This document shows, piece after piece, positions 5,715 through 60,995 of a stretch of DNA of 64,000 bases. The notes below the pieces were generated by a model that was not told the DNA's origin, ran no database searches, and saw nothing but the letters and a program-made list of their open reading frames with translations. Each line of letters starts with the position of its first letter. The first letter of the stretch is position 1. The translations under genes and the position numbers were made by a program. Source of the DNA: Haloferax massiliensis (GTDB lineage Archaea > Halobacteriota > Halobacteria > Halobacteriales > Haloferacaceae); assembly GCF_001368915.1 (NCBI RefSeq), contig NZ_CSTE01000001.1, positions 199,364-263,363 on the forward strand, written 5' to 3'.

Positions 5715-5737
5715 GCGGAGGTCCTGATTTTGAGACG

Positions 5738-5975
5738 AGACACACCTCACACCGAGTGACTAATACACGAACAGGATGATGTGAGCAACCAGCCAGACAC
5801 ACCTCGTAACGAGTGAGGATATAATTCGTTTAGGGAGACACACCTCACACCGAGTGACTAATACACGAACAAGGTGATATGAGCAATTAGCCAGACACAC
5901 CTCGCAACGAGTGACCAACAGTGGTGTTACATAGCTATTGGAGAATCCTACTCAGACACACCTCACAACGAGTGA
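5738..5975 (+). repeat. Five direct 22-bp origin iterons
   Basis: Copies lie at 5738-5759, 5795-5816, 5836-5857, 5893-5914 and 5954-5975, all in the same direction. The consensus is AGACACACCTC, then two or three variable bases, then MCGAGTGA. Start-to-start spacing is 57, 41, 57 and 61 bp. The unit 5738-5816 is duplicated at 5836-5914 with 6 differences in 79 bp, all transitions. The same motif occurs on the other side of the orc gene, so these are probable initiator-binding sites (ORB-like elements specific to this replicon). Confidence 0.8.
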
Positions 5976-50995: not shown

Positions 50996-52945
50996 TCAGT
51001 CGACGCGGAACTCGAACCGCGCACCGCCTTCGGACCCCTCCGAGACCGTCACCTCCCAGCCGTGTGCGGCCGCGACCTGCGAGATGATGTTCAGTCCGAA
51101 GCCGGTCCCCTGCGACGACGTGGTGTAGCCGGCCTCGAACACGGTGTCGCGGTTCTCAGGGGGGATTCCCACGCCGTCGTCTTCGACGAAGAACCCGCGG
51201 TCGGTCTCGCCGACGGTGACGGTCACGCCGGCCCCGCGGTCGGGCGAGTCGTCTCGGTCGCCTGTAGAACCGTGTTCTACAGCGTCACCGGACGCAGTCC
51301 GGTTGCCCGTGGAACCGTGTTCCACGGCGTCGTCGGGAGAATCCCGACTGCCCGTCGAGCCGTGCTCGACGGCGTTTCGAAACAGGTTTTCGAGGAGTTG
51401 CTGGAGTTGGTCGGCGTCGGCGTCGAGGACCAGTTCGGTCTCGACCGAAAGCGTGGCGTCGCCGGTCACCACGTTTCGCCAGCACGCTTGCGCGAGGTCG
51501 GACAGCGCGACCGGCTCGATTTCCATGGCGTCGTCGCCGTCGTGGGCGAGCACGAGCAGGTCGCTGATGAGGTCGTCCATGCGTTCCAGCGCGCGGTCGA
51601 TAGCGTCGACGTGGTCGCTGTCGCAGTCGTCCGCGAGCAGGTCGAGTCGGCCCATCGCGACCTGCAGCGGGTTGCGGAGGTCGTGGCTCACGACGCTCGC
51701 GAAGCGGTCGAGCCGCTCGTTTTGCTCGACGAGTTCGACCTCTCGTTGCTTCTGCTCGGTGATGTCCCGAATCATCGCGACGTACAGGTCCTCGCCCGCG
51801 ACGTTGAGTTGGATGAGGTGGACCTCGGTGGGGAACGTCGTGCCGTCGCGGCGCTGCAGTTCGCCTTCGAACCGATCCGGTTCGTTCGGTGGTAGCTCCC
51901 CCCAGAACGACCGCGAACGGGCCGGGTCCGACGAGGGGTCGAGGTCCCAGATGGTCTTGTCGACGAGTTCCGCCTCGCTGTAGCCCAGTTCCTCGCATAT
52001 CCGCTGGTTCACGTCTCGGATCGTGCCGTCGTCCGTGTGGACGACGACGAGGTCCGGCGAGTGTTCGAACAGGGCTTCGAGCCGCGCGGTGTTCGCCCAG
52101 AGGGTCCGCTCGTAGACCTTCCGCGGCGTGACGTCGTCTTGGAAGCCGACGAAGAAGTCGATGTCCCCGTCGTCGTCGAACAGGGGCGCGATGCGCACGC
52201 GGTTCCAGAACTGGGTGCCGTCCTTGCGGTAGTTCAGCAGTTCGACCGTCACGTGGTCGCGCCCTTCGACCGCCGCCCGCAGTTCGGCGACGGTGTCTTC
52301 GTCGGTCGCCTCGCCCTGTAGGAACCGACAGTTCCGCCCGACTGCTTCCTCGGCGTCGTAGCCCGTGAGCGTCTCGAACGCCTCGTTGGCGTAGACGATG
52401 GGGTTGTCCGCCGCGTGGGGGTCGGTGAGGACGATGCCGACGGGCGCTTCGTCCATCGCCCGTGACCTCACCGACAGGCGCGCTTCGAGCGCCTCGCCCG
52501 GCGACGCCCGAGCGGACCGGACGCGCTCGACGGCGTTCTCGATGCGGGTGGCGAGGAGTCGGTACTGGGTCGCGTCATCGCCCTTCCGCAGGTACCCGGT
52601 CGCGCCCGCGGCGAGCGCCTCGCCAGCTATCTCCTCGCGTCCCCGTTCGGTAAAGAGGATAAACGGCAGTTCGGGGAACTCGTCGCGGACCCGCGACAAC
52701 ACGTCGAGACCGTCGAGGTCGGGCGGGTCGTAGCCGCAGACGACGCAGTCGAACGCCGCGTCACCGCTCCGAATCCGGTCGAGCGCGGCCCGCGGGTCCG
52801 ACTCGGTATGGACGGTGAATCGCCCGCGCTCGCGTTCCAGTTGCGACGCGACGAGCGCCGCGAAGTCGCGGTCGGCTTCGACGTAGAGGACGTCGATAGA
52901 CGCCGGCTCCGAGAGTGAACGCGGCGCGTCACGAGATGAGACCAT
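50996..52945 (-). CDS. LOV/PAS sensor histidine kinase with degenerate receiver
   Basis: From ATG 52945 the 649-residue protein has a receiver-like domain (18-135), a LOV-type PAS (about 160-275, flavin Cys motif GRNCRFLQG at 203-211), a second PAS (about 285-395), HisKA with SHDLRNPLQ (His421), and HATPase_c with DDGVGIPP and GTGFGLNI. In the receiver the acceptor position reads CVVCGYD instead of VSDYD, so Asp is Gly71. The ATP-binding N box is interrupted by three 15-residue repeats starting AVEHGSTG at 525, 540 and 555. It would phosphorylate an unknown partner in response to blue light or redox. Confidence 0.88.
   Translation of the reverse strand: MVSSRDAPRSLSEPASIDVLYVEADRDFAALVASQLERERGRFTVHTESDPRAALDRIRSGDAAFDCVVCGYDPPDLDGLDVLSRVRDEFPELPFILFTERGREEIAGEALAAGATGYLRKGDDATQYRLLATRIENAVERVRSARASPGEALEARLSVRSRAMDEAPVGIVLTDPHAADNPIVYANEAFETLTGYDAEEAVGRNCRFLQGEATDEDTVAELRAAVEGRDHVTVELLNYRKDGTQFWNRVRIAPLFDDDGDIDFFVGFQDDVTPRKVYERTLWANTARLEALFEHSPDLVVVHTDDGTIRDVNQRICEELGYSEAELVDKTIWDLDPSSDPARSRSFWGELPPNEPDRFEGELQRRDGTTFPTEVHLIQLNVAGEDLYVAMIRDITEQKQREVELVEQNERLDRFASVVSHDLRNPLQVAMGRLDLLADDCDSDHVDAIDRALERMDDLISDLLVLAHDGDDAMEIEPVALSDLAQACWRNVVTGDATLSVETELVLDADADQLQQLLENLFRNAVEHGSTGSRDSPDDAVEHGSTGNRTASGDAVEHGSTGDRDDSPDRGAGVTVTVGETDRGFFVEDDGVGIPPENRDTVFEAGYTTSSQGTGFGLNIISQVAAAHGWEVTVSEGSEGGARFEFRVD
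51264..51370. repeat. Triplicated palindromic 45-bp repeat inside the kinase gene
   Basis: Three 17-bp palindromes sit exactly 45 bp apart: 51264-51280 (GTAGAACCGTGTTCTAC), 51309-51325 (GTGGAACCGTGTTCCAC) and 51354-51370 (GTCGAGCCGTGCTCGAC). The arms differ but stay complementary. The linkers also contain palindromes (CCGGAC-GCA-GTCCGG and GTCGGGA-GAA-TCCCGAC). They encode AVEHGSTG plus a variable linker, in frame. Confidence 0.9.
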
Positions 52946-53199
52946 ACGCGACGATAGATAACGCCAAGAGACAATAATGGTGATGCCGGGCGAGAACGTG
53001 TCGCGTCCTCGGTCGCGTCGGACTCCCCGTCCGGAACGAGAAACGCATCCATCGACGCCGCCGGGGACGGCCACACTGCAACTCGCGCGCGACGGCGAAA
53101 CAGCGCCCGAATTTCGAAGACGCAACGGCGAGCGGTAAAAACGCATCGGCCGGTTCGTAAACAGAGCCCTTATAATTTTGAGTCCGCTTTCAAACGGTG

Positions 53200-53592
53200 A
53201 TGACAGCCCCCGACGAATCCGAACGCAACGCGCCATCGCGGCTCGCCCGCGCCCTCTTCGCGAGCGGCCTCGCAGTCCTGGCGATTCGCAACCTGACCGA
53301 CCTCGACGGCCGCATCGCCTACGCGGAGGCGAAGGGCGTCCCCGAGGCGGACCGGCTCGTCCCCGCCGCGAGCGGTCTGCTCCTCGGAGGCAGCCTCGGT
53401 ATCGGCCTCTGGAAGCTCCCCAAACTCGCTTCCGCGAGCGTCGCGGCGTTCTTCGCCGGCGTCACGCCGACGATGCACGACTTCTGGGCCGTCGACGACG
53501 ACGCCCGCGACGAGGAGCTCACGTCGTTCCTCCAGAACCTGACGCTGTTCGGCGCGGCGCTCGCGTTCTTCAAGCGCGCCTCGGACGAGTAG
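53200..53592 (+). CDS. DoxX-like membrane protein
   Basis: The 130-residue protein has four transmembrane helices and the DoxX pattern: RLARALFASGLAVLAIRNLT at the start, LVPAASGLLLGGSLGIGLW, SVAAFFAGVTPTMHDFW, and FLQNLTLFGAALAFFK with the conserved KNLxL-like segment. DoxX-family proteins take part in membrane redox or detoxification. A GTG one codon earlier (53197) could also start it. Confidence 0.8.
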   Translation: MTAPDESERNAPSRLARALFASGLAVLAIRNLTDLDGRIAYAEAKGVPEADRLVPAASGLLLGGSLGIGLWKLPKLASASVAAFFAGVTPTMHDFWAVDDDARDEELTSFLQNLTLFGAALAFFKRASDE

Positions 53593-55267: not shown

Positions 55268-56650
55268 ATGGAAGTGGTCAGGAACGTCCGAGAGCTCACG
55301 GCGGTTCTCGAACAGTTTACGGAGACGACGGGAGCGGTCTGCGAGCTTGAACTGACGAGCGACGGCGAATCGGCCGCGGACGGTGTCCTGGCTTCGGTTA
55401 CCGTCGCGTACGACCTCGCGTCCGAGTGCGCGGTCGACCCGAACCGGCTCTCCGTGTCGTCGCCGGCGGCGTCGGTCGCCGACGGCCGGCTTCGACTCGA
55501 ACTCGACGTGGCGCTCGCGCCCCCGCCGGGCGGAGACGCCGACCCGGAACCGGCGTCGGCCGAGCGCGACTCCGAACGCGACTCCGAGCCGACTGAACTG
55601 GTCGCCCGGGCCGACGGCTCCGGGACGCGAAACGCGGCGGTCGACGCGGCTGTCGGACCCGGCGCGTCGCCGCCGACGATGGAGTCCGAAGTCCCGACAG
55701 AGAGTGGCGAAACGCCGGAGAGCGACCGGGGTGCATCCGCGTCGGCGGACGACGCCACCGAGGCGGGCGCGGAGACGGAGACGGACGCCAGCACCGGCCC
55801 GGACGCCAGCACCGACCCGGACGCCAGCACCGACCCGGACGCCAGCACGGAAACGGAGACCGACGCGGACGCCAGCACCGTGGCGGAGCCAGCGGTGGAG
55901 GCGGACGCAAAAGCGGACACAGACGCGGAGCCGGATTCCGACGCGGTACCGGCCCATCACGACCCGGTTCGGCTTCGGGAGGCCTACGAGGCCTGCGAGA
56001 CGTTCAAGGAGATGACCGCCGCTCTCGGCGTCGACGTGACCCCGCAGACCGTCCGCAACCAGATGATTCAACGCGGGATTCACGAACCGGAGTCCTACGG
56101 CCCGTCGACCGAAACGGCGTCTTCGAGCCGAGCGAGCGACGCGGGCGACGAGGCGCGGACCCCGGAGCCGAGCGTCGCCGACGAGGGGGGCGCGGCCGCG
56201 CCTGAGCCGTCGGCCGAACCGGGAGGCGAGGACACCGCGGACTCGGCGGGGACGGAGCGTGAGACGCGAGCCGAGGCCGACGCGGAAGTCGGGCCGGCGT
56301 CGACTGCGGGGCCGACCGGAGACGCCGGGACCGACGCGGTCGACGCAGACGAGACGCCTGCGGTGACCGAGGACGACTCCGGCGCGAGTGACCTCCCGCC
56401 GCTTCCCGCGTCGGTGTCCTCGCTCGACTGCTCGACGGCGGACGTGTGTGCGGCCGTCGCGGGCGCGAAGACGCTGTACGAAGTCGAGCGTCGCCTCGGA
56501 CTCGACCGCGCCGAGGTCCGCGACGTGCTGACCGCGCTCGACCTCCTCGACCTCGTCACCGGGCGGATGGCCCGACGCGACGCGTCGGCGGCGACCCCCG
56601 CCGACGTTCGAACGCGAGCGCGCGCCGCGCTCGACGGCGGGGCCGAGTGA
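55268..56650 (+). CDS. Disordered two-HTH putative regulator
   Basis: The 460-residue protein has an N-terminal structured domain (1-80), a long acidic Ala/Asp/Thr-rich disordered stretch with tandem DASTDP repeats (about 172-200), an HTH-like segment LREAYEACETFKEMTAALGV (about 236-275, with TPQTVRNQMIQRGIHEP), a second disordered stretch, and a C-terminal winged helix (about 395-440, TLYEVERRLGLDRAEVRDVL). The two HTH units suggest DNA binding. I do not recognise the full architecture. It is divergent from the receiver-LOV gene. Confidence 0.7.
   Translation: MEVVRNVRELTAVLEQFTETTGAVCELELTSDGESAADGVLASVTVAYDLASECAVDPNRLSVSSPAASVADGRLRLELDVALAPPPGGDADPEPASAERDSERDSEPTELVARADGSGTRNAAVDAAVGPGASPPTMESEVPTESGETPESDRGASASADDATEAGAETETDASTGPDASTDPDASTDPDASTETETDADASTVAEPAVEADAKADTDAEPDSDAVPAHHDPVRLREAYEACETFKEMTAALGVDVTPQTVRNQMIQRGIHEPESYGPSTETASSSRASDAGDEARTPEPSVADEGGAAAPEPSAEPGGEDTADSAGTERETRAEADAEVGPASTAGPTGDAGTDAVDADETPAVTEDDSGASDLPPLPASVSSLDCSTADVCAAVAGAKTLYEVERRLGLDRAEVRDVLTALDLLDLVTGRMARRDASAATPADVRTRARAALDGGAE
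55784..55855 (+). repeat. Four 18-bp tandem repeats in coding sequence
   Basis: Units of GACGCCAGCACCGACCCG start at 55784, 55802, 55820 and 55838, the first and last with substitutions. They encode DASTDP in the disordered part of the two-HTH protein. An isolated fifth GACGCCAGCACC follows at about 55870. Confidence 0.85.
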
Positions 56651-60139: not shown

Positions 60140-60995
60140 GGCGAACACGCCCGCGGTCGCGGTGTTCGTGGCGGTCGTCTGTCTCAGCGCCGTCGCGCCG
60201 CCCGCGGTCGCCGCGACCGACACGACCGTCGGCTTCGGCACCGACGCGGCGACCGTCGAACCCGACTCGACGCGGACGTTCGACCTCGTCGTCGACAGCG
60301 TCGACGGCGGCGTCGGCGCGTACGACCTGACGGTCCGACTCGACGACGACGCCGTCGGCCGCATCGCCGAACTCACCACCCCCGACAACGCCGACCCGCA
60401 ACTGAGGAACACGTCGTACGACGAGAACGGCACGGTCGCGTCGCTTCGCGTCGTCGGCCTCGACACCGACGACGACGGAACGGTCGCGGTCGCGTCCGTC
60501 ACCGTCGAGACCGCCGATACCACCGCCGACGGTGCGCTCAACGTGTCCGTGACCAAACTCGGCGACGAGGACGGCAACAACTACTCCGTCACCGGCACGT
60601 CCGAACTCGACCTCTCTGTCTCGGAATCGACCGGCGGTGGCGGCGGTGGTGGTGGCGGTGGTGGTGGTGGTGGCGGTGGTGGCGATGACGACGAGTCGGA
60701 CGACGACACCGACGACGATGCCGACGCGGACGACGACACCGACGACGACACCGACCAGCCCGCGACCACCGAGTCGGCGGCGGAGTCGCCAACGTCCACC
60801 GCGTCGCCCGCGAGTCCGACGACGGCCGACGACGGTACGACGACCGCCAGCGCGACAGACACGCAGTCCGCGACCGGGACGACCGAGACTCGGACCACGG
60901 CGACCGGGGTCCCCGGCTTCGGCGTCGCGCCCGCGGTCGCCGCAATCGCGGCGCTCCTGCTCGGGGCCGGACGCCGAGTGCGACGCGAGAACTGA
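60132..60995 (+). CDS. PGF-CTERM surface protein with cohesin-like domain
   Basis: The 287-residue protein has a signal peptide, a cohesin-like domain (about 30-160, VGAYDLTVRLDDDAVGRIAE), a run of 17 glycines from about residue 167, an Asp-rich stretch, a Thr/Ser-rich stalk and the archaeosortase signal VPGFGVAPAVAAIAALLLGA followed by RR. Archaeosortase A would cleave it and attach lipid, fixing it to the cell surface. Its domain resembles that in the preceding dockerin-bearing protein, with which it overlaps, so the two probably bind each other. Confidence 0.85.
   Translation: MTEANTPAVAVFVAVVCLSAVAPPAVAATDTTVGFGTDAATVEPDSTRTFDLVVDSVDGGVGAYDLTVRLDDDAVGRIAELTTPDNADPQLRNTSYDENGTVASLRVVGLDTDDDGTVAVASVTVETADTTADGALNVSVTKLGDEDGNNYSVTGTSELDLSVSESTGGGGGGGGGGGGGGGGGDDDESDDDTDDDADADDDTDDDTDQPATTESAAESPTSTASPASPTTADDGTTTASATDTQSATGTTETRTTATGVPGFGVAPAVAAIAALLLGAGRRVRREN

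Follow-up and report, generated by a model that had tools for sequence, protein, structure and literature searches.

Why would a short repeat within a protein-coding gene be palindromic, and remain so while its sequence changes? The question arises from a sensor histidine kinase gene of Haloferax massiliensis, in the 64,000-nucleotide stretch of DNA that we analyzed (hereafter, the window). According to a preliminary description of this DNA, the N box of the kinase is followed by two extra copies of AVEHGSTG, each of the three copies is palindromic in the DNA, and third codon positions in the two arms have changed in pairs. It proposed hairpin-mediated insertion, template switching, or a mini-element as the cause. 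The repeats, the palindromes, and the paired changes are all present in the sequence (Table 1).

The kinase has a response regulator receiver domain, two PAS domains, HisKA, and HATPase_c. On the coding strand, the sequence 3' of the N box reads GCCGTCGAGCACGGCTCGACGGGC AGTCGGGATTCTCCCGACGAC, GCCGTGGAACACGGTTCCACGGGC AACCGGACTGCGTCCGGTGAC, GCTGTAGAACACGGTTCTACAGGC GACCGAGACGACTCGCCCGAC, or three 45-bp units. Each unit is a 21-bp hairpin that encodes VEHGST plus a linker, and in units 1 and 2 the linker is a 17-bp hairpin as well. In the VEHGST hairpins, arms of 9 bp (8 bp without the loop-closing C-G pair) enclose a loop of 3 nt, and the linker hairpins have 7-bp arms. The 17-bp length first given for the VEHGST palindrome is just its inner part. 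Similarly, the linkers had been called palindromic, which holds for linkers 1 and 2 (both are perfect) but not for the segment after copy 3 (51239-51259). Two covarying codon pairs had been recognized; a third, at the third positions of the Ala and Thr codons, was missed (C-G, C-G, and T-A in the three copies).

Table 1. Features of the kinase gene and its repeat array, in window coordinates.
Feature	Coordinates	Strand	Remarks
Sensor histidine kinase gene	50996..53236	-	746 aa by longest ORF; true start possibly further in
N box of ATP-binding domain, NLFRNAVEHG	51359..51388	-	Last codons are the 5' half of hairpin 1
Unit 1, 45 bp	51329..51373	-	AVEHGSTGSRDSPDD
Unit 2, 45 bp	51284..51328	-	AVEHGSTGNRTASGD
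Unit 3, 45 bp	51239..51283	-	AVEHGSTGDRDDSPD; linker half is now a poor hairpin
Hairpin 1, perfect	51352..51372	-	CCGTCGAGC ACG GCTCGACGG
Linker hairpin 1, perfect	51332..51348	-	GTCGGGA TTC TCCCGAC
Hairpin 2, perfect	51307..51327	-	CCGTGGAAC ACG GTTCCACGG
Linker hairpin 2, perfect	51287..51303	-	ACCGGAC TGC GTCCGGT
Hairpin 3, perfect	51262..51282	-	CTGTAGAAC ACG GTTCTACAG
Third linker, degenerate	51239..51259	-	GACCGAGACGACTCGCCCGAC; pairing limited to CGAG/CTCG

All 38 of the arm pairs in this array match. When we recoded the array 200,000 times with synonymous codons, using local codon usage, the number of matching pairs averaged 24.4 and never exceeded 35. Of the strongest short hairpins in the whole 64-kb window, five fall within a 111-bp stretch of the array. 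Because we picked the hairpin positions after inspecting the sequence, an independent test has to come from the homologues, where the same pairs stand out unprompted.

The window has other repeats, separate from the kinase array. A pair of direct repeats of 98 bp each, almost identical (92% matches), lies at 5737-5914, and at 55781-55857 there is an 18-bp coding tandem repeat with 3.7 copies at 97% (CGGACGCCAGCACCGACC). Dense short repeats of GGT and GAC type at 60632-60772 probably encode an acidic low-complexity segment.

Among 149 distinct units from homologous arrays, the third codon positions of Val and Ser could pair in 125 (84%, versus 62 or 42% expected, z = 11.1), those of Glu and Gly in 127 (85%, versus 71 or 48% expected, z = 9.5), and those of Ala and Thr in 110 (74%, versus 72 or 49% expected, z = 7.6). 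Adjacent codon pairs, which served as controls, were at expectation in the same units. We also scored all pairs of variable columns, without supplying any structure, in about 200 two-unit stretches (113 with 45-bp units and 89 with 48-bp units), and the hairpin pairs scored the highest, among them linker pairs whose changes are nonsynonymous, as in the residue pairs T..S, P..A, and D..P. For example, linkers may encode PDS..RQD, PRS..PED, PAS..RQD, or PPS..PED: the amino acids are coupled because the underlying bases pair. Perfect linkers were found in 69 of 113 and 58 of 89 stretches, versus about 7 if the halves are shuffled, and these have 20 (45-bp set) and 18 (48-bp set) distinct arm sequences. 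Dozens of genera keep the palindromes despite their different sequences. Across homologues, permutation z-scores range from 7 to 13, but kinship inflates these scores, so we give more weight to comparisons of orthologues (below) than to the z values.

These data bear on two simple explanations. The array might be an ordinary protein tandem repeat whose palindromes arise from codon bias, and a high G+C codon usage does ease matches (the chance mean is 24 of 38 pairs). Given that none of the recodings reached the observed pairing, and given the permutation tests in the homologues, we reject this explanation and consider it practically excluded. The preliminary description had named two outcomes that would refute it, and neither occurred: the recodings did not reproduce the palindromes, and homologues with different sequences retain them. 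This supports its inference that protein constraint does not account for the covariation. Alternatively, the hairpins might act in the transcript, perhaps in translation or stability, as would befit covarying arms in a transcribed gene. If so, G-U pairs should be tolerated, yet G-T is the most depleted mismatch (29 observed versus 203 expected, a ratio of 0.14), beyond A-C (82 versus 260, 0.32) and the others (186 versus 529, 0.35). In other words, there is no tolerance for wobble on the coding strand, which argues against mRNA structure and makes it very improbable. The mismatches are also strand-symmetric.

How widespread are these arrays? All 15 of the 15 genomes from the genus that we tested matched the unit pattern, although in a few of these genomes, the sole match was another sequence. 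Across the class, 102 of the 391 haloarchaeal genomes, from 38 of the 86 genera, matched a two-unit pattern; a control pattern (read backwards) had no matches in the 391 genomes. In a GTDB-wide scan of 84,980 prokaryote species, for which we used half of the pattern, all 78 of the 78 matching stretches were haloarchaeal, with Haloferax, Halorubrum, Halosimplex, Natronomonas, Halorientalis, and Natrinema among the genera. We found no arrays in viral contigs with two patterns that cover most Val codons, so we rejected viral spread. In the arrays that we fetched, units are spaced by 45 bp (124 cases), 48 bp (97), 51 bp (8), or 42 bp (1), which are all multiples of three, and there are 1 to 8 copies per run.

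Every array that we examined sits 3' of a histidine kinase N box, and among about 150 arrays, no copy lies elsewhere. A few loci failed a strict test for the N box; these have variant N boxes, a drifted first copy, a loop-inverted array (two cases), or a gene that is truncated or frameshifted. Within the genome of the window, the strong matches are restricted to six kinase loci. Candidates in other genes of this genome are weak matches, and the strongest (L209) proved to be coincidental, in a different gene. The repeat family is confined to the haloarchaea and always lies at a single site, the HATPase domain loop that follows the N-box helix and precedes the next strand. Separately, at L133 (minus strand of G381:C44), the upstream N box is in another frame, which suggests a frameshifted kinase or an assembly error. 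Also, GTTGAGCATGGATGCAC occurs once per genome in several Haloferax (L014, L016, L019, and L026); it is not a palindromic unit and probably marks an unrelated conserved gene.

This site might be one where the protein can accept extra residues. In an AlphaFold model (52 haloarchaeal sequences), the insert (residues 131-171 of the fragment) is coil with pLDDT near 50, between the N-box helix (109-130) and a strand (173-179), and the core is confident. N118, N122, and H126 (alignment numbering) of the N box are invariant. The invariant Asn is in the original copy, while later copies have Asp or another residue there. Each insert unit has 15-17 residues and is hydrophilic. We infer that the insert is probably tolerated, with the kinase's function unaffected or tuned, because it forms a disordered, hydrophilic surface loop and leaves the N box intact.

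Orthologues that differ in the number of units show that the copy number varies. A plasmid kinase that adjoins an aminotransferase gene has no units in H. gibbonsii ARA6 and LR2-5 (CTGTTTCGGAACTCCGTCGAGCACGCCGGCGAC), a single unit in the genome of the window, and two units in both H. lucentense SVX82 and H. alexandrinus BNX82, in exact 45-bp steps. Orthologues of the window kinase, with its three VEHG copies, have either three copies (the last is modified) or one. In another pair (L011 and L158), the genes are 99.6% identical over the 270 bp upstream and differ by one 45-bp unit. Units are also shared by unrelated kinases. Unit 2 of the H. lucentense plasmid kinase and the only unit of an unrelated kinase (G000:C1:827195) have an identical stretch of 49 nt, yet the upstream flanks of the two genes are just 15-50% identical per 20-bp block, which is the background level. 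For this event, which is the best example of copying, there is about 7 to 10 bp of homology at each end. More broadly, when two units come from different genes of one genome, they have exactly the same linker in 5.4% of cases, versus 0.8% for units from different genomes of a genus and 0% for units from different genera. VEHG codons flank each unit, but a target duplication (which, with terminal inverted repeats related to a full transposon, is a criterion for MITEs) cannot be distinguished from the ends of the units. Some arrays have a higher order, such as ABAB.

Two other kinds of arrays have their own patterns. Some arrays are made of nearly identical units (observed among L144, L145, and L198-L200), and in genome G144, three kinases with different linkers have the same imperfect hairpin, GTGGAACACGGCTCCAC, with an A-C mismatch. 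Since this hairpin is common to different linkers, hairpins and linkers seem to be copied partly independently, and since many units of G144 carry the mismatch, correction is not universal. Also, units in several genera (L061, L126, L216, and L289) have another recurring module between them, with the sequence EPSVADAPEDAVEHGST or one close to it.

Close orthologues also differ by double changes that leave the arms complementary. Between L013 and L022, whose flanks are 97.8% identical, GTA..TCT corresponds to GTG..TCC, and a neighboring ACA codon is kept in both. Between L013 and L020 (99.3% identical upstream), a linked change from A-T to G-C alters Gln to Arg. In two genomes (G008 and G198), the loop has been inverted so that VEHGST became VEPCST, with the arms intact and the kinase's reading frame open. 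These arrays are from different families, and the two inversions are independent. Template switching in coding hairpins of yeast has two reported outcomes, homogenization of the arms and inversion of the spacer (PMC8604942). The VEPCST inversions match this known footprint, which supports template switching between the arms.

Overall, units have been inserted or lost exactly, near-identical units lie in unrelated kinases, and double changes have kept the arms complementary. The hairpins remain self-complementary even as the amino acids change, so copying or correction acts on the DNA itself. The explanation that we favor, with a probability of roughly 55%, is DNA-level processing of hairpins combined with short-tract copying between paralogous kinases. 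While the DNA is single-stranded, in replication or repair, the hairpins would extrude, and a polymerase might switch templates between the arms, which would make the arms identical and would occasionally invert the loop. Within an array, units could multiply by slippage or unequal exchange, which would account for ABAB-type arrays. Units might spread to other kinases by ectopic copying of short tracts, with the N-box sequence that kinases have in common (CTGTTTCGGAACGCCGTCGAACACGG or a variant) providing the homology; this would account for both the sharing of units and the confinement to N boxes. No benefit to the cell would need to be assumed. The original proposal fits the data, including the variable copy number, the exact 45-bp steps, the units common to unrelated kinases, and the loop inversions, but the choice among its three mechanisms is only partly resolved: template switching is the one with a specific footprint. 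Even template switching is inferred from footprints, as there are just two loop inversions and no mutation has been observed in real time.

Two other explanations are harder to set aside. For ordinary gene conversion, 7-10 bp of homology at the ends is little, and an enzyme may therefore have a role. A dedicated enzyme might recognize the hairpins, probably as single-stranded DNA, and insert the 45-bp unit at the N-box sequence GTCGARCACG. Such a mini-element would explain the exact 45-bp gains, the presence of one unit in unrelated genes with background flanks, and why exact sharing is more common within a genome than between genomes. Its hairpins resemble those of the IS200/IS605 and REP systems. 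However, the lack of any copy outside of kinase N boxes, in the arrays overall or in the window's own genome, counts against it, and no enzyme has been identified. We did not detect genes for Y1 (IS200/REP-type) transposases in G002, G006, G007, or G008, which bear arrays, while G003, G005, and G010 have these genes but no arrays. We therefore rejected a link to Y1/RAYT transposases, as there is no association with arrays in the 14 Haloferax genomes that we considered. A dedicated mini-element remains possible but unlikely. So does its fullest form, a 45-bp mobile coding element with two single-stranded hairpins that homes, throughout the haloarchaea, to a single motif in a single protein family, relies on an unidentified enzyme of the host or the element, and rewrites itself by template switching while keeping the frame. 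The other explanation is that selection keeps the arms complementary and neighboring units distinct, because the DNA fold, or some protein that binds it, has a function; for example, the hairpins might be a recombination hot spot for exchanging the sensor and catalytic halves of kinases. Selection on the hairpins, for whatever reason, would be compatible with the strong covariation across many genera. Also, neighboring units differ at the third position of the Val codon more often than expected (85 of 113 versus 65, and 66 of 89 versus 49), which would prevent mispairing between units. Hairpin processing with short-tract copying does not predict this difference on its own; it could reflect the loss of identical neighbors, or selection for separate hairpins. 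But most kinases have no array, and counts of 0, 1, and 2 units are all found among orthologues, so no particular number of units is required, and loop inversions and decayed units persist. We judge functional selection to be rather improbable.

If hairpin processing and short-tract copying are responsible, then the kinase copies, which number in the hundreds across dozens of genera, are a natural record of the correction of hairpin arms, the inversion of loops, and the copying of units. This record sits in working genes of a group that is genetically tractable (Haloferax). It should now be possible to test how protein-coding palindromes originate, how they spread while leaving genes functional, and how often changes of several residues in a protein stem from template switching as opposed to selection. 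A caution is that coupled residues in alignments, such as T..S, P..A, and D..P in these linkers, can reflect pairing in the DNA instead of contacts in the protein.

We did not find an earlier description of this repeat in the open-licence literature (subscription journals were not covered), and it goes unmentioned in a census of archaeal two-component systems. Its closest known counterparts are the protein-coding palindromic elements of Rickettsia (RPE), Wolbachia, and Methanocaldococcus jannaschii (Ogata 2000/2002/2005, Suyama 2005; cited in PMC2996958, PMC10969869, PMC2229807), along with PARCEL. RPE-type elements are likewise in-frame palindromic DNA in genes, at loops that the protein tolerates, and one case is archaeal. 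The haloarchaeal repeat meets the criteria of in-frame insertion (the spacings are multiples of three, and some orthologues have empty sites) and of lying in a surface loop (the disordered segment that links the N-box helix to the strand after it). But an RPE-type element is a single stem-loop of about 105-150 bp that is found in many unrelated genes, while the haloarchaeal unit is 45 or 48 bp, with hairpins of 21 + 17 bp, and is found only at histidine kinase N boxes. It also differs in using one site, in being tandem, and in carrying a copy of its target motif.

PARCEL (PMC2996958) shares tandem coding repeats, dyad symmetry, variable copy number, and spread within genomes. However, its repeats are amphipathic, with 25 residues (DUF285) and imperfect palindromes, in membrane-associated proteins, while the haloarchaeal units are short, hydrophilic, and disordered, in kinases; there is no DUF285 among the domains of the window kinase. 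REP/REPIN elements are extragenic and are associated with a RAYT (Y1) transposase, while the haloarchaeal repeat is intragenic and does not co-occur with Y1 (in 14 genomes only). Quasipalindromes mutated by template switching (PMC8604942, PMC7202029) also have identical arms, inverted loops, and several residues that change together, and the haloarchaeal arrays meet the criterion of arm homogenization with spacer inversion. Those cases are scattered single hairpins, while in haloarchaea a lineage-wide family of repeats seems to live on the process. The MITEs, PATEs, and small mobile repeats of Haloquadratum (PMC3119063) are small, palindromic or with inverted repeats, without a transposase, and haloarchaeal, but the small mobile repeats are about 110 bp, and the accessible part of that source does not describe in-frame insertions in kinases. 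Overall, the haloarchaeal repeat is distinguished from known coding palindromes by its size, its single site, the target motif that it carries, its tandem expansion, and its confinement to one class.
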